Positions 9,922 to 41,168 of a DNA stretch of 41,308 bases are shown in pieces; position 1 is the first letter of the stretch, and the number at the start of each line of letters is the position of its first letter. Position numbers and translations under genes: made by a program. Under the pieces are notes generated by a model. It made no database searches and was not told where the DNA came from. It worked only from the letters and a program-made list of their open reading frames with translations. This DNA comes from a virus. Location of the stretch: the IMG/VR virus record IMGVR_UViG_3300042516_002750, positions 1 through 41,308 of that record. One strand, written 5' to 3'.

Positions 9922-10236
9922 TTAAATATCCGTATTGCCAATCCCTAACAAATCGACAAGTTCAAACATTTCATTACTGCCCCACTCATTGACAATATTA
10001 AACTGCCATTCATTATCATAAAGCTGATCTTGTATTTCGGCATCTTTTACTTTTACGCTCCACCAATTACCATCTGATGCCAATGTTATAATATCGCTAT
10101 TCTTTTGAATAATCAGTATCTTATCACGAAACGACATTTTATTAAATCGGTCTGCCATTTGACGATACTGCTCCAAAGAAAAACTACGCCTAACATCGGT
10201 TTGGCAAGATTGGGGGTTCTGTGGTAAATTGTTCAT
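9922..10236 (-). CDS. Chimeric hypothetical protein with att-encoded N-terminus
   Basis: 104 residues. Residues 1-14 (MNNLPQNPQSCQTD) are encoded by att site P; codon 15 is the core GTT (Val), followed by RRSFSLEQYRQMADRFNKM. The att-encoded NPQSCQ is matched by NPQYCQ in the methyltransferase, whose own att site has the related sequence TTGGCAATATTGGGGG. The arms GTTAGGCGTA (9909-9918) and TACGCCTAAC (10185-10194) are perfect complements. The cassette part is acidic and ends in a FELVDLLGIGNTD helix; function unknown. Confidence 0.63.
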   Translation of the reverse strand: MNNLPQNPQSCQTDVRRSFSLEQYRQMADRFNKMSFRDKILIIQKNSDIITLASDGNWWSVKVKDAEIQDQLYDNEWQFNIVNEWGSNEMFELVDLLGIGNTDI

Positions 10237-10315
10237 TTGTATTTCTATTTAAGTTATTACTAATTTGATAATTTGTGCTTCTAAATCCGCAACTAAATAT
10301 AGCTGCAAACCGTTA
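10184..10315. repeat. att site P (hybrid halves, start codon in loop)
   Basis: Left core ACTACGCCTAACA (10184-10195); right end AAACC then GTTAGCACC (10312 on). The left stem GGTTTGGCAAGATTGGGG resembles site Q, but the right half does not complement it beyond a few bases (GGTTTG with CAAACC), so the site looks like a join of two different att halves. The start codon of gene 9922-10236 is in the loop. Confidence 0.5.
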
Positions 10316-10324
10316 GCACCAATT

Positions 10325-10537
10325 TTAAGAACGCTGTTTAAAAACTTTGATGCCATAAGACAAAGCAAACATCGGTGTCAATCCTGTTGCGTAAACTGAC
10401 TTGTTAATGTAACACATATATTGATAGTCTTCACCTCTAATAATCTGAACATCATTTTCAAGTTGAAATGCAAGTATCTCATCTAAATCAAACATTTGCT
10501 TTGTTAATTCATTTTCTTCTATAAAGTAATCTGACAT
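10325..10537 (-). CDS. Small hypothetical protein
   Basis: 70 residues, acidic N-terminal half (SDYFIEENELTKQMFDLDEIL) and a basic C-terminus. Contains GEDYQYMCYINKSVYATGLTPMFALSYGIKVF, unrecognised. Last cassette gene before the phage early region; its leader ends in the right copy of the 33-bp direct repeat, not in an att site. Confidence 0.6.
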   Translation of the reverse strand: MSDYFIEENELTKQMFDLDEILAFQLENDVQIIRGEDYQYMCYINKSVYATGLTPMFALSYGIKVFKQRS

Positions 10538-10556
10538 AATAAAAATGATTTGTTTT

Positions 10557-10724
10557 TCATTTGTTTTTACTTTTAAATTTTTTAGTTAAGGAAATTTTTA
10601 TCGATCGCAATACTATCTCACGTTCTATTAAATCATTAATTTCTTTTTCAAACGCATCATCTAACTGTTTGCGTTTTGGGTTAAGTATCCACCAGTTTGA
10701 CCATTTACTTATAAATTCTTTCAT
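10557..10724 (-). CDS. Small basic hypothetical protein at the phage boundary
   Basis: 55 residues from ATG 10724 to TGA at 10557: KEFISKWSNWWILNPKRKQLDDAFEKEINDLIERE, then a basic tail ending LTKKFKSKNK. The tail is encoded by the 33-bp direct repeat (10559-10591). Replaying the left repeat copy would give the same tail, a TAA stop, then the start of gene 8816-9106, so the two genes may once have been adjacent. Confidence 0.55.
   Translation of the reverse strand: MKEFISKWSNWWILNPKRKQLDDAFEKEINDLIEREIVLRSIKISLTKKFKSKNK
10559..10591. repeat. 33-bp direct repeat, right copy
   Basis: Identical to 9111-9143. Here it lies in the 3' end of gene 10557-10724, and the sequence beyond it changes from GGTTATACGGTA to GGAAATTTTTATCG, marking the edge between the cassette run and the phage early operon. 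Confidence 0.75.
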
Positions 10725-10734
10725 TCTATTTATT

Positions 10735-10938
10735 TTAAATGTTTAAAAAATCATTTTTTATTTCTACATCTTTGTAAAATACGGAATAGTTTTTTTGTAT
10801 TTTTACTAATCTTTTGGCGTGTTCTAAATTTTTTATTTTAAATTTTTGTTTAGGAAAATCAGGAGACGTTATTTCATTTCCTATGCGGTTACAAAACCAA
10901 GCTAATTGCTTAAACGTTTCATTGTTTGTTAATCTCAT
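10735..10938 (-). CDS. Small phage hypothetical protein
   Basis: 67 residues from the MRLTNNETFKQLAWF start at 10938; another ATG at 10962 would lengthen the overlap with gene 10919-11668 to 44 bases. Contains FCNRIGNEI and a basic KQKFKIKNLEHAKRLVKIQ segment. Not recognised. First gene past the cassette boundary that is clearly coupled to the replication genes. Confidence 0.6.
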   Translation of the reverse strand: MRLTNNETFKQLAWFCNRIGNEITSPDFPKQKFKIKNLEHAKRLVKIQKNYSVFYKDVEIKNDFLNI

Positions 10939-11668
10939 AATCTTTAAGTTTAATTTCTGCATATTCCAATTCGTTTATATTCTTACCATTATATTCTATA
11001 AACCGACCGTAAACATTTTTAACTGGATTTTTAAGCCAAATTTTATAATGTTCGTTAAAACAGTTTTGTATAAAAAAATCACGCTCTGATTTAACTGGTT
11101 TTGGTTTTTCTTTTTTAACGACTTCTGTTTTTTCAGCAACCGATTTTAAAATTTCAATAATTTTTTTCTGTCCTTCGGGATTAATTTCTATTTCGTTTAC
11201 AATACCTTTTTTCTGTTTGGAATGTAACTGTATAGCCAGCTGTTCGTTTAAATCCATTCTTTCGTCCATATAAGCGTTTAACCACTCAAATACTATTTGA
11301 CCATCAACCCTATCAAAAGAACGCCCGTAATAGCCTTTTTTTGCGTTTTCAAAGCATATTTTAAAGTCGTCTGGTTTTAGGTTTTTAGTTCTGTGGTCTT
11401 TTAAGATTAATTTTGAGGTGGCTAAAATTTGCTCTGCACTCATTGTTTTACCTAAGTTTAGAAACATTACAACGTCAGCCAATAGTATGTTAATCAAAGA
11501 TATAGCCCCAACTTCGCTAACTAAGCCAATTTTAAATATTGTAGGACTATTGCTATAAATCGCATCCTTAACCGTTAGAGCTGAAATGTTCGTTAATGCC
11601 TCGTGAGGAAATTTCAACCAATGCACGTATTCCGTCCTCTCGGCTATTTTTAATATTTTGTTTTCCAT
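10919..11668 (-). CDS. Replication-region protein (conserved in Bacteroidota phages)
   Basis: 249 residues. The middle shows LLADVVMFLNLGKTMSAEQILATSKLIL, DFKICFENAKKGYYGRSFDRVDGQIVFEWLNAYMDERM, a signature I associate with a conserved family next to replication initiators in Bacteroidota phages (possibly DUF6633-like; its function is not established). The C-terminal third is Lys-rich and probably flexible. The start overlaps the end of gene 11568-12332 by 101 bases, long for a phage operon, but no closer in-frame ATG keeps the conserved N-terminal part. Confidence 0.62.
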   Translation of the reverse strand: MENKILKIAERTEYVHWLKFPHEALTNISALTVKDAIYSNSPTIFKIGLVSEVGAISLINILLADVVMFLNLGKTMSAEQILATSKLILKDHRTKNLKPDDFKICFENAKKGYYGRSFDRVDGQIVFEWLNAYMDERMDLNEQLAIQLHSKQKKGIVNEIEINPEGQKKIIEILKSVAEKTEVVKKEKPKPVKSERDFFIQNCFNEHYKIWLKNPVKNVYGRFIEYNGKNINELEYAEIKLKDYEINKQ

Positions 11669-12332
11669 TTTGTGTATTTTTTAAATTATCAATCCATTCC
11701 CATTTAAACCCCGACCAGCTTTTTTCAACGCAAGTTTCTAAAACCTCATTAATGTTTATGTTGCTTCGGATTTCTATTTCAGCAATAAATTTTTTATATG
11801 CGGTTTCTGTGTTTGTTGCTTTTTTGTTTTTTCTAACAAGTATCCAATCGTTTACTAAATTTTCTTTAAAGCCGTATTCTAAAAGAGAATTTTTAAAATT
11901 GAATTTGTCCTTTACTACTATTCCTTTTTCTTCTACTATTCCTTTTTCTTCTACTACTACTTTTACTATATGAGTATAATATACTCTATTAGATACTCTA
12001 TCATATAGACTATACCTTTCTAAAATGTTAATTATTTTTTGATGTACTGGACTTTTAGGATTTAAAGAGCTGCCGTTTTGAAACTCAACAAAATCTTTAA
12101 TTATGTACCTTTTTTCATCAATTTTTAATAACTGTTTAGAAAATTCTTTTAAAACATCTTGCTCGGTTATAGTTTCGTTTATAAAAAAATTAGCAGCCTC
12201 AAAATCTTTTTCCCAAATCCCAGCTAAATCACAATTACATAAAACGTAAAACCAAAAACTCTTATACTTTGGACTTAATTTTCTAAACCAAACTTTATTA
12301 AACATTTCTGTATCAAAAAACCTTTTACCCAT
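11568..12332 (-). CDS. Replication initiation/loader-like protein
   Basis: 254 residues. The N-terminal domain begins MGKRFFDTEMFNKVWFRKLSPKYKSFWFYVLCNCDLAGIWEKDFEAANFFI, the usual winged-helix start of DnaD-type or phage replication proteins (lambda O position). A repeated EEKGIV stretch acts as linker, then a helical KNSLLEYGFKENLVNDWILVRKNKK...FIAEI domain typical of their C-terminal half. Predicted to recruit the host helicase at the phage origin. The 11-bp repeat array at 16204 is a candidate binding site, not demonstrated. Confidence 0.65.
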   Translation of the reverse strand: MGKRFFDTEMFNKVWFRKLSPKYKSFWFYVLCNCDLAGIWEKDFEAANFFINETITEQDVLKEFSKQLLKIDEKRYIIKDFVEFQNGSSLNPKSPVHQKIINILERYSLYDRVSNRVYYTHIVKVVVEEKGIVEEKGIVVKDKFNFKNSLLEYGFKENLVNDWILVRKNKKATNTETAYKKFIAEIEIRSNININEVLETCVEKSWSGFKWEWIDNLKNTQNGKQNIKNSREDGIRALVEISSRGINEHFSSNG

Positions 12333-12335
12333 TGT

Positions 12336-12476
12336 TTAAAATAATTTTAATTGACTTGTTTTAATTGTTAGCTGATATTTATTCCAATCGGACATTAATA
12401 TTTTCATTGCCTTTATTGTAGAGGGTAGCTTACACCATTCGTCATAATCCATTGGATATTTTAATTTATTTTTCAT
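12336..12476 (-). CDS. Small hypothetical protein (46 aa)
   Basis: 46 residues from ATG 12476 to TAA 12336: a DYDEWCKLPSTIKAMKILMSDWNKYQ core with basic ends. Its start overlaps the end of gene 12466-12834 by 11 bases and its stop lies 3 bases before the start of the initiator gene, so it fits the operon spacing well. Not recognised. Confidence 0.6.
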   Translation of the reverse strand: MKNKLKYPMDYDEWCKLPSTIKAMKILMSDWNKYQLTIKTSQLKLF

Positions 12477-12834
12477 TTAAAAAAACAAATAAGTTGAAAT
12501 CTCCAAAGTTATTACCGCCTATCATTTTGAAATTGTAAGTAGCATTGCAACTGTAACATTTAACAGTATTATTAATAAAGCCATCATAGTTCCCATCTTC
12601 ATTACTACTACATACTTTTTCAACTATTTTACCACACGCACAAAAAAATTTAACGGATTGCGTTACTCTTACATTTTCATAAACTTCAAGTTCTAAGCCC
12701 TCATTTATTAATAAATCTTTCTTTTTTTCGTATTCCCTTAATGCCTTTATTTGGTCGGAGTTACCGTGTTCTAACTTAACTTTTTGATTAAGTTGATTAT
12801 AAACTCCGTTTTTTTTTATAAATAATTTTTCCAT
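12466..12834 (-). CDS. Zinc-ribbon phage protein
   Basis: 122 residues. A Lys-rich helical N-terminal half is followed by a C-terminal ribbon: CACGK near residues 69-73, then KVC, then CYSC near residues 95-98, ending in an aromatic FNLFVFLNEK. The cysteine spacing suggests one zinc site. Located between the winged-helix protein and the replication genes; a DNA-binding role is plausible but not shown. Confidence 0.62.
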   Translation of the reverse strand: MEKLFIKKNGVYNQLNQKVKLEHGNSDQIKALREYEKKKDLLINEGLELEVYENVRVTQSVKFFCACGKIVEKVCSSNEDGNYDGFINNTVKCYSCNATYNFKMIGGNNFGDFNLFVFLNEK

Positions 12835-12845
12835 AGTTTTTATTT

Positions 12846-13124
12846 TTATTGGTTTACTATTAATTGATATTCGTACAAGCCTATATTTAAACTGCCCTTT
12901 CTGCGTTTGTAAAGTCTATGCCCTCCAAACTTTTGTTTTTTCAAGTTTCTTAATTGAGCCGAAATGCTTGCCTGCGGATAGCCTGTTAATGTTTCTATCT
13001 CGCTTAAAGTCCTAAACTGGCTATCTTTCATTAACTCAAATATTCTGCCCATTTGAGTATTTAGTCGGTCGAAGTCTAAACGGTGGACGTAATCTGCACC
13101 GTTAAATGTTAATTGTGTTTGCAT
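12846..13124 (-). CDS. Winged-helix DNA-binding protein
   Basis: 92 residues. RIFELMKDSQFRTLSEIETLTGYPQASISAQLRNLKK is a canonical winged helix-turn-helix, with recognition helix around PQASISAQLRNLKK, followed by a wing (GGHRLYKRRKGSLNIGLYEY). Small proteins of this type are common in Bacteroidota phage early operons. Probable regulator or replication accessory; its target is unknown. Confidence 0.72.
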   Translation of the reverse strand: MQTQLTFNGADYVHRLDFDRLNTQMGRIFELMKDSQFRTLSEIETLTGYPQASISAQLRNLKKQKFGGHRLYKRRKGSLNIGLYEYQLIVNQ

Positions 13125-13133
13125 AGTTTTTTT

Positions 13134-13403
13134 TTAATTAGTTTTATAAACGTTGTAGAATACCCAAAACACACAGACAAAGCCAACCAACAAGCAATAA
13201 AGAAATGCTAACATTAAATAAGTTTTAATAACTTCTTTTTTTGCAAACATATATTCATCTCGCTCATCTATCCTATAAGAATGAAGCCATTTAAATTTTT
13301 TGTATTTATAATTGAAACTTTTAGAAAAAAGTTTTTTGTGCCACTTTATAATTAAGTAAATATTTGTAAGGGCGTAGAATGAAGTAATTAATATTATAAT
13401 CAT
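13134..13403 (-). CDS. Small two-helix membrane protein
   Basis: 89 residues with two predicted membrane segments, about residues 2-19 (IIILITSFYALTNIYLI) and 63-83 (YLMLAFLYCLLVGFVCVFWVF), separated by a basic loop of some 40 residues. Both ends would face the same side. Function unknown; such genes in early operons sometimes act in superinfection exclusion, which is speculation here. Confidence 0.6.
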   Translation of the reverse strand: MIIILITSFYALTNIYLIIKWHKKLFSKSFNYKYKKFKWLHSYRIDERDEYMFAKKEVIKTYLMLAFLYCLLVGFVCVFWVFYNVYKTN

Positions 13404-13449
13404 ATTTTTTGTTTTTAAAATGTTTGTTTTAATTGGTTAATTATTTTGG

Positions 13450-13593
13450 TTATCTTTTATCTTCGTAAAGTGCGTCTAATCTACTTTGTAAATCACTTAT
13501 TAATTCTTTTAATAATTCTTCATAATCATAATAACTTAGTCCTTTGGTTTCTGTGGTTATTAAATTTTGAATTTTTTCTATTTTTTCTTCCAT
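13450..13593 (-). CDS. Small acidic hypothetical protein (47 aa)
   Basis: 47 residues from ATG 13593 to TAA 13450: EEKIEKIQNLITTETKGLS, then a YEELLKELISDLQSRLDALYED helix. It is one base from the end of the VRR-NUC gene and so fits the operon. The heptad-like pattern suggests a short coiled coil. Not recognised. Confidence 0.58.
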   Translation of the reverse strand: MEEKIEKIQNLITTETKGLSYYDYEELLKELISDLQSRLDALYEDKR

Positions 13594-13594
13594 T

Positions 13595-13957
13595 TTATAT
13601 TTGTTTTAATTGTTTGCCTAAACTGAAATAAACATCTATCACATTCTTTGCCGTTTCAAAGTCGTAGCAAACTTTAGTGTACCAGTTTATTTTTTCTAAC
13701 TTGTTTATAAAATTTATTTGATTTTCGTTTACTCTATTTGGTTTTATTTTTAGTTCAATAGCTAAACCGTTATAACTACCCATTGGATTAAGTACAAGCA
13801 CATCACAAACACCTGCTAACACTCCCATTTTTTTTAGTTTACTCGCTTCTATAACATTTCTACTACCTCCATTTGGGACGTGAAAAAATATTTTTTCTTT
13901 GTATTGTATTTGTAAATAGCGTATAACCTGTATTTGTAGTTGGTCTTCCTTAGTCAT
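13595..13957 (-). CDS. VRR-NUC domain nuclease
   Basis: 120 residues, the usual size of stand-alone VRR-NUC proteins. The PD-(D/E)xK core is visible: FFHVPNGGSRN near residues 28-38, GVCDVLVL with the metal-binding Asp near 56, and LAIELK with the Glu and Lys near 67-70. Phage members are thought to be structure-specific endonucleases acting on replication or recombination intermediates (Holliday-junction type). The neighbours, an ERF-like annealing protein and replication genes, fit that role. Confidence 0.85.
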   Translation of the reverse strand: MTKEDQLQIQVIRYLQIQYKEKIFFHVPNGGSRNVIEASKLKKMGVLAGVCDVLVLNPMGSYNGLAIELKIKPNRVNENQINFINKLEKINWYTKVCYDFETAKNVIDVYFSLGKQLKQI

Positions 13958-14306
13958 TTAGTTTCTGTTTAAAATGTTCAATTACTGTATTAGAAATGTG
14001 CGCATAGTAGTCTTTAAACTCGGTAAAGCCTTTATTATCCTTTTGCCAGTTTAGAAACCAAACCGCCCTTAATCTTTGGCTTTGCGTTTTTTTGCTGTCG
14101 TACAAGTCCAAATCAATCTTATCTAATTCAATCAACTCATCTTTATTTATTTTATCCTGCCCTTTAAAATAGAGTATGCCGTGTGTTTGAAATAAATCAT
14201 CTAACTCTTGTTTTTGTTCTTTAGTTAATTCAAGTGTGTTAAATGTTATACTAAATGATTTGTCGGACTTTGGTCGGTAGTTGGTTAATGTGCAAGCGAT
14301 TAGCAT
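13950..14306 (-). CDS. Conserved hypothetical protein of the recombination module
   Basis: 118 residues. ELTKEQKQELDDLFQTHGILYFKG and the later KTQSQRLRAVWFLNWQKDNKGF segment form a pattern I have seen beside ERF or RecT-type genes in Bacteroidota phages; no biochemical function is known to me. Overlaps the VRR-NUC gene by 8 bases and gene 14300-14530 by 7, so expression is coupled. Confidence 0.6.
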   Translation of the reverse strand: MLIACTLTNYRPKSDKSFSITFNTLELTKEQKQELDDLFQTHGILYFKGQDKINKDELIELDKIDLDLYDSKKTQSQRLRAVWFLNWQKDNKGFTEFKDYYAHISNTVIEHFKQKLND

Positions 14307-14530
14307 ATATTGTGGCGCATTTTAAATTCATAATCTTTTAGCTGTTTGTAGGCGTTTATGGAGGCTTTTTTTAATCTTTTGTATTCCTCATCAATTTGAA
14401 AAAAATCGTCCTTTACTTCAACAGATTTTATTTCATAATCGTATTCATTAACTAAATGGCACTCGTTGCGTATAGCCTCCCATTTGTAAAGTTCTAACCT
14501 TACAGTTATGTATTCGTTCTCATTAATCAT
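14300..14530 (-). CDS. Small hypothetical protein
   Basis: 76 residues, highly charged: VRLELYKWEAIRNECHLVNEYDYEIKSVEVKDDFFQIDEEYKRLKKA. Probably a beta hairpin plus a long helix. Not recognised. Overlaps the ERF gene by 8 bases and gene 13950-14306 by 7, a normal position for small partners of annealing proteins. Confidence 0.58.
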   Translation of the reverse strand: MINENEYITVRLELYKWEAIRNECHLVNEYDYEIKSVEVKDDFFQIDEEYKRLKKASINAYKQLKDYEFKMRHNIC

Positions 14531-15074
14531 TTGTAAACCCTTTCTTTATTGCTTTAGAGTGAAGTATAATTATTTCGTGTTGTTTAAGTTCGCTATCTAA
14601 TTGAATGAAGTTTGATTTTAATTCAGCATCGTTTTTGCTTTTGCTTAAAAATGATTTAGCTTCTTCAATACGGACGTGCAAGGGTTTAGGCTCATTAATT
14701 GTTTGTGCTTTAGGTGCTACATTTGTACTTTGTGCATCATCATCATCTATTTCTAATGCTAATAGCGAAGCGAGTGTATAACGTCTAAAGTAAGTAATAG
14801 CACTGCCTAATTGCTGTGGAGTTAAATTACTGGGTAAGTCAATAAAGCTAACCTCTTTATTTCCGTTATAACTCAACTGTGTACCAGCTTTGTTATCAAA
14901 TATTGGTTGAGTAATTAATACGCCAACTTCATTTAATATAGGCTTAACCTCGCTTAGTATTTGAGTTAATGAAGCGTAGGTATTTTTGAAATGTGGATTT
15001 TTACTATCCTTTTTTATTACTGAAATTTTCTTTTGAAATTCGAGTAGTTGAGTTTCTAACGTTTGTTTTTCCAT
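14523..15074 (-). CDS. ERF-family single-strand annealing protein
   Basis: 183 residues. The N-terminal domain has SKNPHFKNTYASLTQILSEVKPIL followed by GVLITQPI and LTPQQLGSAITYFRRYTLASLLALEIDDDDA, the signature of the ERF superfamily (P22 Erf type). These proteins anneal complementary single strands in phage recombination. The domain ends near residue 115; the rest is a charged linker and a helical tail. Next to a VRR-NUC nuclease, it forms a typical phage recombination module. Confidence 0.87.
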   Translation of the reverse strand: MEKQTLETQLLEFQKKISVIKKDSKNPHFKNTYASLTQILSEVKPILNEVGVLITQPIFDNKAGTQLSYNGNKEVSFIDLPSNLTPQQLGSAITYFRRYTLASLLALEIDDDDAQSTNVAPKAQTINEPKPLHVRIEEAKSFLSKSKNDAELKSNFIQLDSELKQHEIIILHSKAIKKGFTND

Positions 15075-15092
15075 TTTTTTATTTTTTAATTG

Positions 15093-15338
15093 TTAATAGT
15101 TTAGATATATGTTTGTGTTTTTTTTCATTACTTCAATAGCTTTTTTTAATCGGAGTTCAAGTAATTCACTATTTCCTTTACTTAACTCCGTTGCTATTTC
15201 TAAACAGTGTTTTTCATTGTTGCTAATTGTTTGTAAAAGCATTTCGTGCCGTGCCACCCTTAAAATTGGTACATAAATTTCATCGAGCCTCATTGTACCT
15301 TTTAAATGATTTGAATAGTTGATGTTTACATTTGGCAC
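15093..15338 (-). CDS. Small hypothetical protein
   Basis: 81 residues: an Asn-rich start, then RLDEIYVPILRVARHEMLLQTISNNEKHCLEIATELSKGNSELLELRLKKAIEVMKKN, which looks like two long helices. Not recognised. Lies 18 bases upstream of the ERF gene in the same operon. Confidence 0.58.
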   Translation of the reverse strand: MPNVNINYSNHLKGTMRLDEIYVPILRVARHEMLLQTISNNEKHCLEIATELSKGNSELLELRLKKAIEVMKKNTNIYLNY

Positions 15339-15789: not shown

Positions 15790-15804
15790 ATCTTTTTTTT
15801 TAAA

Positions 15805-16053: not shown

Positions 16054-16087
16054 ATTATATTGTTATCTTTGTTTTTAATTAATAATG

Positions 16088-16203: not shown

Positions 16204-16313
16204 GGGAACGGTTTGGGAACGGTTTGGGAACGGTTTGGGAACGGTTTGGGAACGGTTTGGGAACGGTTTGGGAACGGTTTGGGAACGGTTTGGGAACGGT
16301 TTGGGAACGGTTT
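16204..16313. repeat. Ten perfect tandem 11-bp repeats (iteron-like)
   Basis: Ten uninterrupted copies of GGGAACGGTTT occupy 16204-16313, followed by a partial unit. GGTACAAC occurs on both edges, at 16194-16201 and 16315-16322. The 11-bp period is close to one helical turn, so the copies face the same side of the DNA. The location between the divergent early and late units, and the initiator-like gene nearby, suggest an origin or operator array; that is inference. Confidence 0.7.
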
Positions 16314-16397
16314 GGGTACAACGCTCTACCCAAATAAAATAGGGCTTACACTAAATTAAGTTTTGAGGCGGAAAAACAAAACACAAACATTTGTATT

Positions 16398-16515: not shown

Positions 16516-16521
16516 ACATTA

Positions 16522-16552: not shown

Positions 16553-16561
16553 TTTTTAACG

Positions 16562-28878: not shown

Positions 28879-29352
28879 ATGAAAAAAATAATTTTAATTA
28901 CAGTTTTAGGTTTATTTGCCTCATGTGCAATGGCACAAATTACAGCCCCTCGTTTTGGAACTACTAAAAATGATGACAATACAGGGCGCGTATTAAATTA
29001 TGCGGTTATAACAACCACAGATGTTACAGCTGCAACATTAGATACCATTTTAATTACTCCAAACGCTTATGAAACTTTGGTTTGTATGAAAACTGGAACA
29101 GCAATTACTAATTTGGCTGATTCAGTTTGCTATAAATTTTCAAGTAAAACAGCAACTTACAAATTGGGAGACAGAGTTACATTTACAATAAGTAAAGGTA
29201 CTGGTGCAGGTAAAATTAAATTTGGAGGTTCTCAATTTATACTTAGTACAGCTTCGGCAGCAGTTGCATTAGCGGCAAACAAATCGCTTATTATATCATT
29301 TCGTTGGAATGGTTCAAAATGGATTGAATGTGAACGTACAGTACAACCTTAG
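28879..29352 (+). CDS. Signal-peptide protein in the structural module
   Basis: 157 residues. Residues 1-20 (MKKIILITVLGLFASCAMAQ) are a textbook signal peptide with an AMA-Q cleavage site; an FASC string also resembles a weak lipobox. The rest is Thr, Ala and Gly-rich beta sequence (AVITTTDVTAATLDTILITPNAYETLVCMKTGTAITNLADSVCYKF...SFRWNGSKWIECERTVQP) like decoration or fibre domains. A secretion signal is odd between capsid and tail genes. Confidence 0.65.
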   Translation: MKKIILITVLGLFASCAMAQITAPRFGTTKNDDNTGRVLNYAVITTTDVTAATLDTILITPNAYETLVCMKTGTAITNLADSVCYKFSSKTATYKLGDRVTFTISKGTGAGKIKFGGSQFILSTASAAVALAANKSLIISFRWNGSKWIECERTVQP

Positions 29353-29433
29353 TTATGAATGAATTAAAAGAACGCTTAACCTCTGATTTAATTAGTTATG
29401 AATGAATTAAAAGAACGCTTAACATCTGATTTA
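29351..29433 (+). repeat. 43-bp tandem duplication at a gene start
   Basis: 29351-29393 is repeated at 29394-29433 with one difference (C/A at 29381 versus 29424). Each copy has a start codon; 43 is not a multiple of three, so the first copy leads only to a 16-codon peptide stopping at a TGA that overlaps the second ATG. Confidence 0.8.
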
Positions 29434-29629: not shown

Positions 29630-31156
29630 ATGGCATTAAACGACGTTGTTTTTATAAAAGGTCAAGGCGGTTTAGGCAGACCTTTACCGGGTGAAGACTA
29701 TATAAGTGGATTTGTTTTTTATACAGCCACCTTGCCAACTGGTTTTAGTTCGTCTGATAGAATAAAGAATATATTTAGCGTACAAGATGCTGAGGCGTTA
29801 GGAATTACAGCCACTTATTCGGACGAAACAAAAGCAACAGGAACTTATTTATTTACAAACGTTGGGGCAACTGGTGATCCAGTTGAGTTAAAAGTTTTAG
29901 AATACCCAACCGCAAACAATCCAACTGGTAGCGTTTCTTTAGGTGTTTACCCACGTTTAAGCACTGATACAACAGTTACTATATTAGGCGCAAGTTATGC
30001 AGCCTTTATTAATTCGGGTACAGCAACACACGGTTATACAGCCACAGCATCAACAGGAACAGTAACAATTACGGCAAGAGCAGGATTGGGTATATTTTTA
30101 AATACTGGCACTCCATTAAGTGCTACCGTAGGGGGAACTATTGCAGGAACTGTTACTCAATTTAGTGGTGGAGCTTATTCTAAATTAGCACAATGGCACT
30201 ATCATATTAAAGAATATTTTAGAATTAATCCAAACGGAAATTTATATGTAGGGTTTTATCCTGTCCCATCAACTTATGATTTTACAGATGTTCAAACAAT
30301 GCAAAATTTTGCAAACGGTAAAATACGTCAATTTGCAGTTTATTGTGATGGAACAACTTATACAAGCGGTAAAGTTCAAGCGGCTCAAGCTATTGCAACT
30401 GCAATGGCAACAGATAAAAAACCTGCTCAAATATTAGTAACATTTGATTTTTCAGCTGCTTCATTAAATGCTATGACTGATTTAAGTACACTTAATTCAA
30501 ACAATGTATCGGTTGTAATTGGACAAGATGGATTGAATTTAGGGTATAGATTATACAAAGCAACTGGACGGTCAATAACTTGTTTAGGTGCGGTATTAGG
30601 TGCGGTATCATTTGCAAAAGTAAGTGAAGATATTGCATGGTTGAGTAAATTTAATTTAAGTGATGGAAATGAATTAGAGGTAGTAGCGTTTGCAAACGGT
30701 GTTTTATTTAGCGCAACAACTACCGCTTTATTGACAACCTTAGATAACAGCCGTTATATTTTCTTAATGAAGCAAGTAGACTATGCAGGAACGTATGTAA
30801 ATGATTCTAATTGCTGTATTTTAGAAAGTAGCGACTACGCTTATATTGAGAATAATAGAACTATTGATAAGGCGGTTCGCTTATTAAGAGTGGCATATTT
30901 ACCAGCTTTAGCAAGTCCTTTAGTTTTAAATTCAAATGGAACTTTAACAGATACAACCGTTGCATACTTTGAAAGTTTAGGTAATATAGCTTTAGACCAA
31001 ATGGTGAGAGACACTGAATTAAGTGCCAAATCTGTGGTTATTAACCCAACTCAAAACGTTTTAGCAACAAGTGAATTAATAGTTGCTGTAACCTTAGTTC
31101 CAGTTGGTGTAGCAAGACAAATTAAAATAAATATTAAATATTCAACAAGCATATAA
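29630..31156 (+). CDS. Tail sheath protein
   Basis: 508 residues. The start ALNDVVFIKGQGGLGRPLPGEDYISGFVFYT, the central PNGNLYVGFYPVPSTYDFTDVQTMQNFANGKIRQFAVYCDG and the C-terminal DNSRYIFLMKQVDYAGTYVNDSNCCILESSDYAYIENNRTIDKAVRLLRVAYLPAL...DQMVRDTELSAKSVVINPTQNVL match DUF2586-type sheath proteins of Bacteroidota phages. It shows the tail is contractile. The tube gene follows directly. Confidence 0.85.
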   Translation: MALNDVVFIKGQGGLGRPLPGEDYISGFVFYTATLPTGFSSSDRIKNIFSVQDAEALGITATYSDETKATGTYLFTNVGATGDPVELKVLEYPTANNPTGSVSLGVYPRLSTDTTVTILGASYAAFINSGTATHGYTATASTGTVTITARAGLGIFLNTGTPLSATVGGTIAGTVTQFSGGAYSKLAQWHYHIKEYFRINPNGNLYVGFYPVPSTYDFTDVQTMQNFANGKIRQFAVYCDGTTYTSGKVQAAQAIATAMATDKKPAQILVTFDFSAASLNAMTDLSTLNSNNVSVVIGQDGLNLGYRLYKATGRSITCLGAVLGAVSFAKVSEDIAWLSKFNLSDGNELEVVAFANGVLFSATTTALLTTLDNSRYIFLMKQVDYAGTYVNDSNCCILESSDYAYIENNRTIDKAVRLLRVAYLPALASPLVLNSNGTLTDTTVAYFESLGNIALDQMVRDTELSAKSVVINPTQNVLATSELIVAVTLVPVGVARQIKINIKYSTSI

Positions 31157-35337: not shown

Positions 35338-35930
35338 GTGTAGAAAGCGACCAAATAAAAAAGTGCGTACAACAATTAGCAGACACGTTTAATAAAGATA
35401 GCGTTAAGTTAATTATTGCAACTGTTACTGATAACAGTAAGGCGGAATCTGATTTTATTGTTAGCGTTAAGCCTATTAATGATAGTGCTACAACACCTAT
35501 AAACAATGTAAAATTGAATACAGAAAGTAATGATGGTTGGTTAATTGTTCCTGCGGTTGATAGTACTGTTTTAGTAATTAGTAGTACAATAAATAAATAT
35601 TACTGTTTAATGTATTCCGACATTGAAAAAATAGTTTGCGTTATTGATAGTAATAATAGTTACAAATTTAGTTCAAATGGATTTGTTTGGAATGATGGTT
35701 TGTTTGGAGGAATGGTAAAAATAAACGCTTTATTAACTAAGTTAAACCAATTAGAAATATTTGAAAATACAGTTAAGGCGGCGGTGGTTGCTATTAATAC
35801 GTCCGCAAGTGGTAGTCCATCAACTCCAGTTACTAATGCAACGTTAGCGGCATTTTTTGCAACAATTATACCAACACTAATTACACCAACTTCATTAACT
35901 GAAATTGAAGATATAAAAATTAAACATTAA
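35334..35930 (+). CDS. Baseplate spike/assembly protein (gp45-like)
   Basis: 198 residues. An OB-fold-like region (VKLIIATVTDNSKAESDFIVSVKPIND...DGWLIVPAVDSTVLVISST) is followed by an Ala-Ser-Thr-rich stretch and a short charged end. The position between hub and gp25-like gene is that of the spike or gpV-type protein. Family identity is inferred mostly from order. Confidence 0.6.
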   Translation: MSVESDQIKKCVQQLADTFNKDSVKLIIATVTDNSKAESDFIVSVKPINDSATTPINNVKLNTESNDGWLIVPAVDSTVLVISSTINKYYCLMYSDIEKIVCVIDSNNSYKFSSNGFVWNDGLFGGMVKINALLTKLNQLEIFENTVKAAVVAINTSASGSPSTPVTNATLAAFFATIIPTLITPTSLTEIEDIKIKH

Positions 35931-36238
35931 TGGCATTAGCAAAAGACATACAATTAGAAAATAACGACTTAGTAATTACTAATGGGGATTTTGCTATTGG
36001 ATTTAGCGACCAGCAACACATTGAGGATATTATAAATGATAACGTTGGTAATTGGAAACAGTACCCTACTTGTGGAGTAGGAATAAAGCAATATCAAGCA
36101 AGTTCGGGGCAAGAACAAATAATTGAGCGTTTAATAAAATTGCAATTACAGAATGATGGATACAATGTAGATAAATTAAGGGTATTTTTTGATGCAGATG
36201 GAACTTTAACAATAGACCCACAGGCAAACAGGATATGA
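35930..36238 (+). CDS. GPW/gp25-like baseplate wedge protein
   Basis: 102 residues: LAKDIQLENNDLVITNGDFAIGFSDQQHIEDIINDNVGNWKQYPTCGVGIKQYQASSGQEQIIERLIKLQLQNDGYNVDKLRVFF. This fits gp25/gpW-type proteins (gp46 of Mu), which interact with the J protein in the wedge. Overlaps are one base upstream and 4 bases downstream. Confidence 0.75.
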   Translation: MALAKDIQLENNDLVITNGDFAIGFSDQQHIEDIINDNVGNWKQYPTCGVGIKQYQASSGQEQIIERLIKLQLQNDGYNVDKLRVFFDADGTLTIDPQANRI

Positions 36239-36768
36239 GTGAGTTAGTAATTCAAAATAATTTAACAATATATGATTTAGCTTTACAAACAGGCTATACG
36301 TTGGATTATATTTATAAATTAATTCAGCAAAATGATTTTTTAGAAAGTGTTGATACAACGCCTCCAAAGCTAAAAACAATAACTTACGATAATTCATTTG
36401 TACCAAAAACAATACCTAAACTAACAGTAACAACATCAAATAATACTCAAACAGTTGATTCATTACAGAAATTAGAAGGGCAAAGTATTTACGATATATG
36501 CTTACAAAGTTATGGCAGTTTAGACTTAGTTTATAAATTAATACAAGATAACTTTCTTGTAAATGTGGACGAGACTATTGAAACTGGTAAAGTTTTAAAT
36601 TTTACAATTACGGACATTGTAGATATAGGATTGTATAAATTATTTAAAAAATATTCGACATCAATAACAAGCATACCAATAATACCACCAATTAATTTTA
36701 ACAATTATTTATTACAAGAAGATGGATACTACATATTACAAGAAACTGGATTTAAAATAATATTATAA
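36235..36768 (+). CDS. LysM-like duplicated tail protein
   Basis: 177 residues with an internal repeat: LTIYDLALQTGYTLDYIYKLIQQNDF (about 10-35) and QSIYDICLQSYGSLDLVYKLIQDNFL (about 82-107), each recalling a LysM-like unit as in gpX or tail hub proteins. A short INFNNYLLQEDGYYILQETGFKIIL ends it, frequent as the C-terminal end of Bacteroidota phage fibres or baseplate proteins. Probably at the tail tip. Confidence 0.6.
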   Translation: MSELVIQNNLTIYDLALQTGYTLDYIYKLIQQNDFLESVDTTPPKLKTITYDNSFVPKTIPKLTVTTSNNTQTVDSLQKLEGQSIYDICLQSYGSLDLVYKLIQDNFLVNVDETIETGKVLNFTITDIVDIGLYKLFKKYSTSITSIPIIPPINFNNYLLQEDGYYILQETGFKIIL

Positions 36769-36769
36769 A

Positions 36770-37738
36770 ATGGCAGATTTAAAAATATCAAATTTACCAG
36801 CGGCGACTGGATTAACTGGAGCTGAAATTATTGCTTTAGTTCAAAGCGGAGTAACTGTACAAATAAACATAAATTCATTATCTGATGTATTTCTTCCATT
36901 AACATTTAATGCCGGTTATACAATAGTTACACAAGGCAACGCATTTAAAATAGATGCACAACAAGTAATTGATTTAAACCCTAACAGTTCAAGTGTGGAC
37001 GTTGGTTTTAAAACTAATAGTGGGCAATACTTAATATTTAGCGAAATAAGCGACTCTTCAATTATTGCAGTTGGAAATTATGGTAGCCCAAATTTAAGAG
37101 GCATAAGCATAGAAGGCGACACTACTTATGGCATAACTATTTTTTCTAAAGGCACTTATCTTACAGGATTTAAGGGAGCGTTATACGATGCCGATTACAG
37201 TGCAAACTTTGTAAATAGGTCTTTAGTGGATAAGGAATATGTAGATAATTTAGTGAGTTCATCTTCTGCGAGTATATGGCGAAATGGTGCAGGTGCACCG
37301 AGTAACAGCTTAGGTATTAACGGAGACTATTATCTAGACACGGCAACAGGAAATGTATATTTTAAAGCAAGTGGCACTTATTCGGTAGTGGCTAATATTA
37401 AGGGCGCAGATGCTACAAGCAACCCACGTATAACCTCAATTACTTCGAGTGATATCATACAAGCTGATTGTGGAACTACCGATACATTTACCGTTTTAGC
37501 ACTTGCAAAAAACGCAACACTAGACCCGCCAACAGGCACGCCTGTAGATGACCAGAGTTTGCGTTATAGAATAACGGATAATAATGTAATTAGAACATTA
37601 ACAGTTAGTCCTTTATTTAAACTAATGACCACATCCCCTCAATATACGGTGCCTGGCAAAACCTTATACATTGATACTGCATACAATGCAAATTATGCGG
37701 CATGGGTTATTACTGGCTGGGGGCAAATAACTAATTAA
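36770..37738 (+). CDS. Tail fibre protein
   Basis: 322 residues. The start ADLKISNLPAATGLTGAEIIALVQSGVTVQI is a known N-terminal anchoring motif of Bacteroidota phage fibres. The middle reads NFVNRSLVDKEYVDNLVSS, typical before a trimeric segment, then a NGAGAPSNSLGINGDYYLDTATGNVYFKASGTYSVVANIKG collagen-type repeat. The end is a beta-rich domain. Confidence 0.75.
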   Translation: MADLKISNLPAATGLTGAEIIALVQSGVTVQININSLSDVFLPLTFNAGYTIVTQGNAFKIDAQQVIDLNPNSSSVDVGFKTNSGQYLIFSEISDSSIIAVGNYGSPNLRGISIEGDTTYGITIFSKGTYLTGFKGALYDADYSANFVNRSLVDKEYVDNLVSSSSASIWRNGAGAPSNSLGINGDYYLDTATGNVYFKASGTYSVVANIKGADATSNPRITSITSSDIIQADCGTTDTFTVLALAKNATLDPPTGTPVDDQSLRYRITDNNVIRTLTVSPLFKLMTTSPQYTVPGKTLYIDTAYNANYAAWVITGWGQITN

Positions 37739-37739
37739 T

Positions 37740-38453
37740 ATGGCTTGGCGTACAGTACACCCCCAAATAATTAAAGCTGATAGTACGATTTTAAACCCTA
37801 CTAACATAAAATGGCACGTTGCCTTAGAAAACAATGCAAATGATTTTAGGCAAATTAATAATGGTACAGCCACAAACGTAACTTATGGTAGTAGCTATGG
37901 CAAAGTAAACGACGGAGCTTACTTTAATGGTGCGGGATACATACTTTATAACCCTGCCGATGAGTTTAATTTAACCGACAAAGATTTTACTATTTCATTT
38001 TGGTTTAAAACAACTACATCCGCTTACTGCTCGTTAATAGCTCAAACAAGTAGCAGTGGTAGCATTAGCACAACTTCGTTTGCTATTTTAATGAATGCAG
38101 GGAAAATAATACCTTACCTATGCGTGGCTGGTGCAACTAGGACACTAACAAGTGCTAATTCTTTTAACGATGGTAACTGGCATTTTTGCGCATTTACAAG
38201 GCGAGATAACCTTTACGAGTTATTAATAGATAACAACCTTGAAGCCACATCGGCAACTAATCAAAGTATTTGGAATAGCATTAGTTGGAACTCTGTAAAC
38301 TTTAAATTAGCACTTGGCAAATTTGGCGAATTAGCATCGGGATTGTTTTATACAGGCAGTTTAGACGAGGTTGGAATTTTAAACATAGGCGCAGACAGAA
38401 ATTTATTAACCTATTTATATAACGGAGGCGCAGGTAAAACTCCCCCCTATTAA
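37740..38453 (+). CDS. LamG/concanavalin-like fibre protein
   Basis: 237 residues. YFNGAGYILYNPADEFNLTDKDFTISFWFKTTTSAYCSLIAQ, DGNWHFCAFTRRDNLYELLIDN and SLDEVGILNIGADRNLLTYLYNGGAGKTPPY give the LamG (laminin G-like) sandwich. Such domains bind glycans; it probably contacts the host surface together with the fibre before it. Confidence 0.78.
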   Translation: MAWRTVHPQIIKADSTILNPTNIKWHVALENNANDFRQINNGTATNVTYGSSYGKVNDGAYFNGAGYILYNPADEFNLTDKDFTISFWFKTTTSAYCSLIAQTSSSGSISTTSFAILMNAGKIIPYLCVAGATRTLTSANSFNDGNWHFCAFTRRDNLYELLIDNNLEATSATNQSIWNSISWNSVNFKLALGKFGELASGLFYTGSLDEVGILNIGADRNLLTYLYNGGAGKTPPY

Positions 38454-38469
38454 CTATTAACTTATAACT

Positions 38470-38712
38470 ATGTATTATATACTAACAAACCAACAAGCAA
38501 ACGAAATAGGCGTTACATTAATGGATAACGGTGTTTATTTTAACCCCTTTGTAATGCTACAAAAAAACGGAAATTATTTAGTTCCAAAGCAATTTGTAGA
38601 AGCTAATACAGATTTTTTACACATTGATTTTACTGGCTATGAATTAACCGACGTAGTAAATAATTTTGAACCTGAAATACCAAACGTATTATTAAACATT
38701 TTAAACAACTAA
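38470..38712 (+). CDS. Small fibre-associated protein
   Basis: 80 residues: YYILTNQQANEIGVTLMDNGVYFNPFVMLQKNGNYLVPKQFVEANTDFLHIDFTGYELTDVVNN. No family recognised with certainty. Its position after the fibre genes suggests an accessory part or chaperone. TAATG overlap with the next gene. Confidence 0.58.
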   Translation: MYYILTNQQANEIGVTLMDNGVYFNPFVMLQKNGNYLVPKQFVEANTDFLHIDFTGYELTDVVNNFEPEIPNVLLNILNN

Positions 38713-38993
38713 TGTATATGGCAGAACAGTTTATAAGTAGTAGTTTTTTTAGAAATTTAAGCAGTTTAGCTGTTATTGTTGGTGGTGTGTTTTACATTGA
38801 ACATCATATAACCGAAGTAATAGAGGAAAATATTAATCCTACAAAAATAGAAGTTAAAAAACATGATGAAAAAATAAATAAATTAGAAATAGAAACTAAT
38901 TTGAGTAATTATAAATGGGCGATTTATGAAAATGAAATTAAAGATTTTTTAAAACCCGAAGAAGTTAAAATTAAAATAAGAAATGGAAAATAA
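38712..38993 (+). CDS. Small membrane protein of the lysis region
   Basis: 93 residues; about residues 12-29 (NLSSLAVIVGGVFYIEHH) form one likely membrane segment, and the rest is a Lys/Glu-rich helix (PTKIEVKKHDEKINKLEIETNLSNYKW). It overlaps the amidase gene by 11 bases. It could be a pinholin or another lysis factor; unproven. Confidence 0.58.
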   Translation: MYMAEQFISSSFFRNLSSLAVIVGGVFYIEHHITEVIEENINPTKIEVKKHDEKINKLEIETNLSNYKWAIYENEIKDFLKPEEVKIKIRNGK

Positions 38994-39465
38994 ATTAAAA
39001 TACTTAGTAATTCATTGCACTGCTACGCAAGAAGGCAGGGAACTAACAAAAGACGATATAATAAAAATGCACACATCACCACCTCCAAAAGGCAGGGGTT
39101 GGAAACAAGTTGGCTACTCTGATATGATCCATTTAACTGGCTTAATAACAAACTTAGTGCCTTATAATGAAGACGACATAGTACAACCAAGAGAAGTTAC
39201 AAATGGAGCTTTAGGATTAAACGCAATATCGAGGCACGTTGTTTATGTTGGAGGCGTGGAGAAAGACGGCAAAACTCCAAAGGATACACGCAACTATTTA
39301 CAAATAATTGCATTAACAAACTATGTAAAGCAAGCATTAGCGAACCATAAGGACATTGTAATATTAGGGCATAACCAAGTAGCGCCAAAGGCTTGCCCGA
39401 GCTTTGATGTCCCTAAATGGTTAAAGTCTATTGGTGTTGCAGAAAAAAACATTTATAAAAAATAA
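38983..39465 (+). CDS. N-acetylmuramoyl-L-alanine amidase (endolysin)
   Basis: 160 residues, the usual size. Zinc ligands are visible: His in LVIHCTAT (about 11), His in VILGHNQVAP (about 129) and Cys in KACPSFDVPKW (about 138); HVVYVGGVEKDG is the substrate-side strand. Amidase_2/PGRP type. It cuts the amide bond between sugar and peptide in peptidoglycan at lysis. No signal peptide, so it depends on a holin. Confidence 0.9.
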   Translation: MENKLKYLVIHCTATQEGRELTKDDIIKMHTSPPPKGRGWKQVGYSDMIHLTGLITNLVPYNEDDIVQPREVTNGALGLNAISRHVVYVGGVEKDGKTPKDTRNYLQIIALTNYVKQALANHKDIVILGHNQVAPKACPSFDVPKWLKSIGVAEKNIYKK

Positions 39466-39481
39466 TAACAATAACCAACAC

Positions 39482-39535
39482 CCCCCAACAACACAGTAAC
39501 ACTAAGTGTACACGCAAGGGCGTTGGGGGTTTTTT
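39482..39535 (+). terminator. Intrinsic terminator after the amidase gene
   Basis: CCCCCAAC (39482-39489) pairs perfectly with GTTGGGGG (39522-39529), followed by T6 (39530-39535); a GTGTACAC palindrome lies in the loop. It ends 7 bases before the holin start, so the holin and spanin genes need read-through or another promoter. Confidence 0.72.
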
Positions 39536-39541
39536 AAAATT

Positions 39542-39817
39542 ATGAAAAATATAAAAACATTTTTTAAAGATATAATTGCTTCGTTTAATAACAAAGACGG
39601 AGGGGCTTCAGCTCGCAAATTAACGGCGTTTTGGGCTATTGTGTTAATGGGTGGATACATTACAATTAGATTGTTACCATCGGACTCAATGTTACACGCC
39701 TTGTATAGTTGGCAGTTGTTGGGCTTGTTATGCTTAGGTATAATCACAGCCGAACAAATAATAAAATTTAAAACAGGAACTAATAATAAAAATGAAAATG
39801 AAAAAGAAAATAATTGA
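39542..39817 (+). CDS. Holin-like protein
   Basis: 91 residues from MKNIKTFFKD at 39542; the frame is open to 39506, but that part is the terminator. Two likely membrane segments, about 28-44 (LTAFWAIVLMGGYITIRLL) and 55-75 (ALYSWQLLGLLCLGIITAEQII), then a Lys/Asn/Glu tail. The position between amidase and spanin supports a holin role. It overlaps the spanin gene by 26 bases. Confidence 0.68.
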   Translation: MKNIKTFFKDIIASFNNKDGGASARKLTAFWAIVLMGGYITIRLLPSDSMLHALYSWQLLGLLCLGIITAEQIIKFKTGTNNKNENEKENN

Positions 39818-40367
39818 GTTTTTGCCGTTTATAATAGCTTTACTAACGTTTGTTATATTGCTAAATAGTTGCACGGCTTATAAAGAAAAAATTTGTAAGA
39901 CGTGCGCTATAATTAAAAAAGATAGTGTAAACGAAGCAATTAAAATTACTCCCTTTGATACAAATCTTTTTATTTCTGGCTACAAACGAAAATTTGAACT
40001 AACGGGTAAGTGTTTAGTACTTTGTGATAGCATAAATAAATTAATTGATTTTTATAATAAAAAAGGGCTAGATTTTGTTGTAAGCAAAGGCAACGGAACT
40101 AAAACAACAATAAATAAAAGTGCACAAGGTAATTTTGTTTTTACCACCGAATTAGACAGCCTTAAAAAACTTGTAACCCTTTTAAAGTACGAAAAAAATA
40201 GGACACACTTTGTTTTAGATACCGTTGAGGCTAAATGTACTAAACAGCATTACACTTGGATAGACGGATTTTATAAACGTGGGTTTTGGTTTTTTGTAAT
40301 ACTTTTTGTAATAGTTATGGTTTTATTTTTTATTTACAAAAGGTATTTAGTTAAGGTTATACGGTAG
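39792..40367 (+). CDS. Unimolecular spanin (u-spanin)
   Basis: 191 residues. The N-terminal hydrophobic segment ends in the lipobox-like LLNSC (Cys about 27), expected to anchor the protein in the outer membrane; a C-terminal membrane segment (about 162-181, GFWFFVILFVIVMVLFFIY) with a basic tail anchors it in the inner membrane. Between is a periplasmic helical region. This lipoprotein-plus-transmembrane plan is that of u-spanins such as T1 gp11, which fuse the membranes in the last step of lysis. Its last seven codons and TAG lie in boundary element 4. Confidence 0.75.
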   Translation: MKMKKKIIEFLPFIIALLTFVILLNSCTAYKEKICKTCAIIKKDSVNEAIKITPFDTNLFISGYKRKFELTGKCLVLCDSINKLIDFYNKKGLDFVVSKGNGTKTTINKSAQGNFVFTTELDSLKKLVTLLKYEKNRTHFVLDTVEAKCTKQHYTWIDGFYKRGFWFFVILFVIVMVLFFIYKRYLVKVIR

Positions 40368-40370
40368 TTA
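40346..40370. repeat. Array-boundary element 4 (attI-like) at the spanin stop codon
   Basis: TTTAGTTAAGGTTATACGGTA then core GTTA (40367-40370), the same 25 bases as element 3. It encodes the end of the spanin gene. The first cassette after it carries the methyltransferase. The preceding 20 bases (tatttacaaaa) also resemble those before element 1 at 3766-3787. Confidence 0.62.
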
Positions 40371-41168
40371 GTGGCAATGCTGACCGAACACCCGACCAAC
40401 TGCCAAATCATAATATTTTACCTCTTTTTCAATTCCAATAAAGGAACGGTTCAACTCTTTTGCTCCTAAACAAGTTGTGCCTACTCCCATTGTGTTATCC
40501 AAAACAAGTTCACCCTCATTTGAATAAGTGCTAATAATCCACTTCATCAACTCCAAAGGCTTTTCTGTTGGGTGTTGTTTTGCCTTTTGGTTTGCATTGC
40601 TAATCTCAATAATGGAAGTCGGATAGTATTCATTATTAAATTTTACATCTTCATTATAGCTTCCGTATGTTCCCTTATTGCCACCAACATAACCGCCTTT
40701 TTTTCGTGGCTTTCCTCGTTCTTCCATTATTGGATTATATGTTGTCTTTCCTTTGGCAAAAATCAAAATATCTTCGTGCCTTCTCAATGGCATTTTTTTG
40801 GCGTTTAAAAATCCGCTTGTGCTTTTCTTATCCCATATCAGTTTATACTTAAACCACTTTGGGTTGCTCATCATTAATACGCCTGTAAAAATACCATCAG
40901 CAGTTAAAACTATACAACCATTTTCAGTTAATATTCTACTGTAATTTTGCCAAAGTAAATCCAAAGGCAAAACGCTATCCCACTTGTTTTGTGTCGTTCC
41001 ATAGGGCAAATCTGCCAAAATGAGTTGAACCGATTTATCAGGAATAAGAGGTAAAATATCCATACAATCAGCATTGAACAAAGCACTGCCACTAACACTG
41101 CATTGGCAATATTGGGGGTTTAGTGCTGTATTCAAGTTTAGTGCTTCTATTATCTTTTGTGCTATCAT
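40368..41168 (-). CDS. DNA methyltransferase (beta-class type) with att-encoded N-terminus
   Basis: 266 residues. Motif IV LILADLPYGTTQNKWD (Asp-Leu-Pro-Tyr) is near residues 50-65, and the SAM-binding VLDNTMGVGTTCLGA near 227-241, giving the IV-before-I order of beta-class adenine-N6 or cytosine-N4 enzymes. HPTEKPLELMKWII precedes motif I as usual. Residues 1-24 are encoded by att site Q; codon 25 is the core GTT. Related enzymes normally begin near the LFNADCMD segment, so the extra N-terminus looks acquired. No restriction partner is seen. Confidence 0.88.
   Translation of the reverse strand: MIAQKIIEALNLNTALNPQYCQCSVSGSALFNADCMDILPLIPDKSVQLILADLPYGTTQNKWDSVLPLDLLWQNYSRILTENGCIVLTADGIFTGVLMMSNPKWFKYKLIWDKKSTSGFLNAKKMPLRRHEDILIFAKGKTTYNPIMEERGKPRKKGGYVGGNKGTYGSYNEDVKFNNEYYPTSIIEISNANQKAKQHPTEKPLELMKWIISTYSNEGELVLDNTMGVGTTCLGAKELNRSFIGIEKEVKYYDLAVGRVFGQHCH

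Follow-up and report, generated by a model that had tools for sequence, protein, structure and literature searches.

An integrase-less cassette array with inverted genes and putatively attC-coded protein N-termini in a Bacteroidota-type phage

Why should two otherwise unrelated proteins of one virus begin with nearly the same short segment? The question is raised by the IMG/VR record IMGVR_UViG_3300042516_002750, a virus contig of 41,308 bp (analysed at full length and called the window below), whose genome map is probably circular, since one open reading frame (ORF) reads across both contig ends. An earlier, sequence-only reading had noted the motif NPQ-x-CQ near the start of a DNA methyltransferase (ORF 40368-41168, minus strand) and of a protein of no known family (ORF 9922-10236, minus strand), and ascribed it to an N-terminal module delivered by att sites. 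The window belongs to a phage of Bacteroidota type; its integron cassettes form an array that has no integrase of its own (a CALIN). The best explanation of the shared segment, which we hold to be very probable from sequence comparison, is that the genes of this array are inverted relative to their attC sites, and that the attC sites code for N-termini which are moved by attC exchange.

The late operon (terminase, portal, tape measure, amidase) occupies the plus strand at 16.8-40.4 kb and the early genes, including an O-like replication protein and an Erf-like annealing protein (14523-15074), the minus strand at 10.3-16.1 kb. Between the two operons, the minus strand carries small genes and, between these, palindromic sites that have the anatomy of integron attC: R'' (..TAACG), two arms, and R' (GTTA..). 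The array comprises ~16 such sites (Table 1), with inverted RYYYAAC ... GTTRRRY cores around the palindromic arms. The core at the start of a cassette body is complementary to the core at its end over 9-10 bp, and the cores chain in this way. The integron integrase (IntI) model TIGR02249 has no match in the window; with at least two clustered attC and no intI, the array corresponds to a CALIN and not to a complete integron, in which intI stands beside attI and an array.

Both NPQ-x-CQ proteins have their ATG inside an attC. The motif is the translation of the inner arm, CCCCCAATnTTGCCAA, next to R', and is followed by the valine encoded by the core GTT: NPQYCQ occupies residues 17-22 of the methyltransferase, upstream of Val25, and NPQSCQ residues 7-12 of the second protein, upstream of Val15. 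As the sequence-only reading had stated, the underlying DNA is related (TTGGCAATATTGGGGG at 41103 and TTGGCAAGATTGGGGG at 10201, plus strand; these are the sole two matches at ≤2 mismatches, with 0.09 expected from shuffles), and the parts behind the core have no significant similarity (BLASTP E = 0.66). In the methyltransferase, PF01555 covers residues 47-256 (2.7e-31) and PHROG 67 residues 30-260, and homologues align from about residue 30. Its attC folds with -14.5 kcal/mol on the minus strand vs -10.5 kcal/mol on the plus strand. The attC of ORF 9922-10236 has a 5' arm as in the related loci L039-L041 and a 3' arm as in L042/L201 (L numbers are our handles for the loci compared); its arms are unpaired and the usual hairpin is not formed. 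Relatives of this ORF were found in L200 (88%, full length), and in L201 and L202, which match at the N-terminus only. The two attC are of different types with a common conserved inner arm; the shared segment is attC-delivered, as had been proposed. Chromosomal attC of Bacteroidota read in the same frame give the similar NPPFCQTAV (MFNLALNPPFCQTAV), which identifies the motif as the read-out of an attC arm.

The same methyltransferase body (V-SGSALFNADCMDIL...) is found behind at least five attC-coded N-termini that are unrelated to one another: NPQYCQCSV, MIIEQMLNNAPKPLLHIADV, MIDRITEQPFCQTRV, MLNLPQNPKWYIARV, and MQETNPIEDRPDFIKYSV. Identities of body and attC are discordant, with 93% for the body and 64% for the attC between the window and L204, and 70% and 93%, respectively, between the window and L206. 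Homologues outside cassettes have their own Met 2-5 residues before the LxxGDCL motif and carry no NPQ-x-CQ segment. The discordance and the non-cassette homologues indicate that the segment is attC-borne, which upholds the earlier claim of delivery by att sites. That one of the two protein families had the segment ancestrally is scarcely credible, given these homologues and the different N-terminus on the 93%-identical L204 body. A separate observation concerns the cassette methyltransferases as a group (40368-41168, L203-L221): the ends of the body are near identical and the middle is divergent, as if the target-recognition part had been exchanged.

The reverse situation, with one arm in front of many bodies, was found when the NPQSCQ arm and core were searched as a DNA pattern in viral contigs, with no reading-frame requirement. 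In the 18 contigs matched, the frame from ATG to NPQSCQ(T/A)DV is open in all but L294 and L298 and leads into at least eight unrelated bodies (in L300 the ORF through the arm runs off the contig end). The two exceptions lack the attC ATG, and their core reads GTT-ATG, a possible start. Eight of nine distinct bodies behind this arm are open in the Val frame from the ATG (background 0.207, P = 2.5e-5). The search that the sequence-only reading had suggested, for the segment followed by Val-Ser-Gly-Ser, Val-Arg-Arg or similar and then by divergence, thus yielded the junctions V-SGS, V-SGT, V-SGC, V-RRS, and V-ITR. One body (V-SGSVS..MFK..KTFSVS) stands behind NPQSCQADV in L042 and behind QSQPSCLGAV in L044. 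The bacterial consensus arm CCCATTTTGCCAAACCGCTGTTA was not found in the viral contigs.

What moves can be read from identical units in different surroundings. A unit of 285 bp consisting of an attC and the body downstream of it recurs with 100% identity in six further contigs, where both flanks are different, and a second unit likewise recurs in three loci; the units are bounded by the G^TT cores. Because these units comprise attC and downstream body, the cassettes take canonical form only if read on the strand complementary to that of the genes. In the viral loci 31 genes are inverted relative to their attC and none is canonical (18 and none in an independent viral set), vs 8 inverted and 76 canonical in Bacteroidota chromosomes (Fisher p = 6e-21). 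The attC therefore lies at the 5' end of the phage gene, and not at the 3' end as in the bacterial loci, which are canonical; this inverted polarity accounts for the 5' position of the attC, which the claim of att delivery, although sustained, had left without explanation. Three Bacteroidota integrons that bear IntI have canonical polarity, and the direction of their attC with respect to intI confirms which orientation that is. At three of the bacterial loci where cassettes are inverted (L056, L067, L106), genes with matches to phage protein families are present as well. The attC type was located by the pattern TAACGKTTTGCRGMTWRGCGAAG in at least 117 bacterial-genome stretches, nearly all Bacteroidota among the matches listed. 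Most attC keep paired arms, and the palindrome has one better-folding strand, namely the strand that is gene-sense in the phage arrays, in 142/168 attC of the whole set (p = 2e-21) and 35/37 viral attC. As a side observation, many of the Bacteroidota chromosomes L051-L130 carry chains of attC-like sites, each site of very constant length (124 bp modal), with no recognisable IntI. A canonical reading of the phage array, with attC 3' of the genes and N-termini borrowed from the preceding cassette, was rejected, as the identical units are attC plus downstream body, the polarity is opposite to that of bacterial arrays, and the ORFs starting in attC fit inside cassettes only when these are inverted.

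Further ORF starts within attC were found in ORFs 9155-9406, 1048-1317, and 4177-4413, in addition to the pair recognised earlier; the first is the stronger case. Its module, MKEQIENILIKVDEGTMPVQQALSELLLLFSV, is encoded exactly from R'' to R', and the attC is found before several different start-less, often Cys-rich bodies. In the loop codons outside the paired arms pN/pS is 0.22, AlphaFold2 predicts helices at residues 2-14 and 19-33 of the module (pLDDT about 90), and in the phage genes L028-L036 the module ORF is retained with the core GTT lost and R'' gone. The low loop pN/pS, the ORF kept without its core, and the confidently predicted hairpin indicate that purifying selection acts on the peptide. 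A search for the module in bacterial genomes, sequenced phages, and plasmids gave no match.

With regard to where cassettes enter, the sequence TTAAGGTTATACGGTAG^TTA occurs in four copies in the window (0 expected by chance), and the array stops there at the gene-3' end of each block. The four TTAAGGTTATACGGTAGTTA copies sit where attI is expected in the recombination direction, at each cassette block, and we infer that the TTAAGGTTATACGGTAG repeats are phage-borne attI-like sites. For the late gene 39792-40367, which ends in one of them, the search for relatives turned up a single contig, which encodes an identical protein. In the most probable course of events, an integrase supplied in trans, namely a host IntI, would insert cassettes at the attI-like sites. 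Transcription from the early operon would run towards them and only inverted genes would be expressed; the position of the array at the far end of this operon, transcribed towards the attI-like site, is the likely reason for the gene inversion. The attC (~124 bp), lying in the 5' leader and often having an ATG in an A-rich leader, would supply the start codon, and translation would pass the inner arm and then the core G^TT (Val) before it enters the body. Bodies could then lose their own start codons, with the attC arm becoming the first 15-30 amino acids, and attC exchange, by integrase or by homologous recombination, would place one N-terminus on unrelated bodies and several N-termini on one body. 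Erf-type homologous recombination is a good candidate for exchange on the R' side, given the chimeric attC of ORF 9922-10236 and the mosaic methyltransferases.

Could the attC-coded N-termini be artefacts of ORF calling? The attC would then be untranslated, with true starts after the core (TTG, GTG, or an internal ATG) and a frame open by chance. We regard this as unlikely. It draws on the in-frame TTG right after the methyltransferase core and on the read-through ORFs of bacteria (MFNLALNPPFCQTAV...), which seem spurious and do not clearly exceed the swapped controls (46 vs 30.6 for all sites). Among viral sites, however, ORFs run from the attC ATG through the core in 17/34 cases vs 10.7 in swapped controls, a value above all 500 controls (p ≤ 0.002), and the bodies open behind the NPQSCQ arm and the low pN/pS of the 9155 loop speak likewise for translation. 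Moreover, the body of L220 and the zinc-ribbon-like bodies have no start codon between the core and the conserved part, and the ORF is retained where the core (L028-L036) or the 5' arm (L200) has been lost. A strict reading-frame rule was weakened: GTTAG cores carry a TAG that leaves two of the three frames open, and phase 2 occurs in some of the cassettes.

As to the agent of shuffling, general phage homologous recombination (Erf-type, with relaxed homology) between attC loops, cores, and conserved first codons could also exchange the N-termini, leaving the attC as relics. The Erf-like protein encoded by the phage, the unpaired arms of the chimeric 9922 attC, the methyltransferases with near-identical ends and a differing middle, and the lack of IntI in the window and in 22 related records agree with it; complete units with boundaries exactly at the cores, 100% identical in different flanks, and arms paired in most attC, as expected for live sites, do not. 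On balance we consider this account possible but rather doubtful. Far less probable is a role of the hairpins as RNA elements, either terminators or translational regulators, in place of recombination sites. The better-folding strand is indeed the gene-sense, mRNA-like strand, yet the complementarity of R' and R'' goes with the body and differs when the body does, the flanks switch exactly at the cores, and IntI-bearing Bacteroidota integrons share the layout; Rfam gave no match.

The attC and cassette anatomy, the unit boundaries, the inverted polarity, the exchange of modules and bodies, and the purifying selection on one module are established at the level of sequence. Several points nevertheless weigh against the explanation preferred here, that of an integrase-less array of inverted genes with attC-coded N-termini. 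As to the integrase, the window and the 22 related records have no IntI, and neither have 44 bacterial genomes with the present attC type; among the Bacteroidota genomes sampled, 105/395 score above the cut-off of the IntI model. The attC were called with an in-house palindrome finder, and not with HattCI/IntegronFinder. Exchange on the R' side is not expected of canonical IntI chemistry, which cuts the other end of inverted cassettes, and the chimeric 9922-10236 attC suggests that homologous recombination contributes. As to translation, the start at the attC ATG is a presumed one: the in-frame TTG of the methyltransferase may be its true start, and ORF 9922-10236 has an internal ATG (MADRF) that may serve likewise. 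The Val-frame preference is partly forced, since GTTAG cores hold a TAG stop in another frame.

A fuller picture would have Bacteroidota phages keep their own pool of inverted cassettes, distinct from that of the bacteria, in which the attC is a 5' module with a start and a selected peptide, and N-termini are shuffled with a preferred frame by means of multi-copy attI-like sites on the phage and a host recombinase. It is offered tentatively, and we lean slightly away from it as a whole. The textbook integron cassette is a gene followed by an attC; a phage pool of opposite polarity, if true, would mean that the same sites can be used back to front, that attC have been turned into protein-coding start modules, and that recombination alone diversifies the N-termini of anti-restriction enzymes (methyltransferases) and of small phage proteins. 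With such a pool, the integrase that serves Bacteroidota phages and the way in which cassettes move between bacterial and phage pools also become testable questions.

Table 1. Features of the window: attC and attC-like sites, putative attI-like sites, and associated ORFs.
Feature	Position	Strand	Basis
Methyltransferase-cassette attC, R'' AAC to R' GTT, 124 bp; holds ATG 41166-41168; codes MIAQKIIEALNLNTALNPQYCQCSV	41093..41216	-	18-bp hairpin
N6/N4 DNA methyltransferase, 266 aa; residues 1-25 putatively attC-coded, body after Val25	40368..41168	-	Pfam, PHROG
Chimeric attC preceding ORF 9922-10236; codes MNNLPQNPQSCQTDV	10192..10314	-	alignment
ORF, 104 aa, no known family; residues 1-15 putatively attC-coded	9922..10236	-	family search
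attC, 122 bp, upstream of ORF 9445-9765	9790..9911	-	attC anatomy
attC coding 32/33-residue module MKEQIENILIKVDEGTMPVQQALSELLLLFSV	9310..9435	-	hairpin z = -2.85 on - strand
ORF, 83 aa: putatively attC-coded helical hairpin and start-less body	9155..9406	-	AlphaFold2, sequence comparison
attC, 125 bp, upstream of ORF 6590-6913	6908..7033	-	related site in L043
attC, 66 bp, upstream of ORF 5339-5593	5645..5711	-	attC anatomy
attC, 85 bp, upstream of ORF 4836-5198	5242..5327	-	attC anatomy
attC, 65 bp, upstream of ORF 4471-4722	4760..4825	-	attC anatomy
attC-like site, degenerate R'' (AAT), in front of ORF 4177-4413	4282..4460	-	sequence reading
ORF, 78 aa, start upstream of core GTTATAAG	4177..4413	-	ORF reading
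attC, 117 bp, upstream of ORF 3825-4034	4061..4178	-	attC anatomy
attC, 88 bp, upstream of Mom-like gene 2526-3275	3278..3365	-	arm TAACGTTTTGCAGATAAGCGAAGGCAC common to L039
Mom-like DNA-modification gene, cassette-borne	2526..3275	-	PF25680 7.3e-37; PHROG 1384 4.2e-49
attC, 88 bp	1560..1648	-	attC anatomy
attC remnant, R'' lost, codes QSQPSCLGAV N-terminus of ORF 1048-1317	1258..1383	-	80% to L044 578-695
ORF, 89 aa, start upstream of core GTTATG	1048..1317	-	ORF reading
attC, 77 bp, upstream of ORF 744-1007	972..1049	-	attC anatomy
Short attC, 47 bp, upstream of ORF 451-651	691..738	-	attC anatomy
Putative attI-like insertion site TTAAGGTTATACGGTAG^TTA at stop codon of late gene 39792-40367; array start in recombination direction	40351..40370	+	
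Putative attI-like site, copy 2	9138..9157	+	repeat search
Putative attI-like site, copy 3	6561..6580	+	repeat search
Putative attI-like site, copy 4, 1 mismatch; flank 88% to copy 1 over 58 bp	3793..3812	+	repeat search

Other repeats were observed in the window. Copies of an exact 33-bp direct repeat (9111-9143 and 10559-10591), the sequence being the tail of a small early gene, stand on either side of a ~1.4-kb cassette block and resemble a duplication made at block insertion. Between the divergent early and late operons, at 16204-16324, lie ~10 tandem copies of the 11-bp GGGAACGGTTT, possibly an origin or a regulatory region. A 42-bp direct repeat (98%, 43-bp spacing) is present at 29349-29433, upstream of ORF 29630-31156.

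Integrase-less attC arrays are already known in phages, and IntI1 recombines five of six tested attC from three virulent phages, including attC2 of Polaribacter phage P12002L (PMC9892861); the same paper reports that top-strand recombination of phage attC occurs at lower frequency. P12002L is close to the window in having an attC array without IntI, a cargo of DNA methyltransferases and a Mom-like gene (PMC9892861), and attC on the 5' side of the genes; it differs in that its genes have their own ATG after the core. An exact 69-bp repeat of P12002L (L302, NC_028924; 29236 and 37262, minus strand), at the 3' ends of the methyltransferase and Mom-like blocks, takes the same position as the attI-like sites of the window with a different sequence, and is a candidate phage attI. 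The accessible part of PMC9892861 mentions divergent attC directions only, with no systematic inversion or attC-coded N-termini, and in the searchable literature, to which subscription papers and preprints do not belong, neither inverted-gene cassettes nor N-terminal modules coded by attC were found described. In Bacteroidetes, IntegronFinder 2.0 lists earlier reports of In0 only and then one complete integron, in Salinibacter ruber (PMC9024848). Canonical integron cassettes, including those of Bacteroidota chromosomes, share with the phage arrays the attC anatomy, the core G^TT, the boundaries, the strand-asymmetric hairpin, and the chain of complementary cores, and differ in gene polarity relative to attC, which is reversed in the phages. 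The short ORF-11 of attI1 also lies in a recombination site and aids poorly initiated cassettes, but it acts by termination-reinitiation from attI (reviewed in PMC8876359), whereas the phage segment is attC-borne and continues in frame into the body. The one case found in the literature consulted of demonstrated translation through an attC is GCUF1-OXA-28, in which experiments established an N-terminal fusion to the next cassette (PMC3375312); this is a single clinical case in canonical orientation that uses the attC of the upstream cassette, whereas the phage attC is the gene's own 5' part and the arrangement is recurrent.

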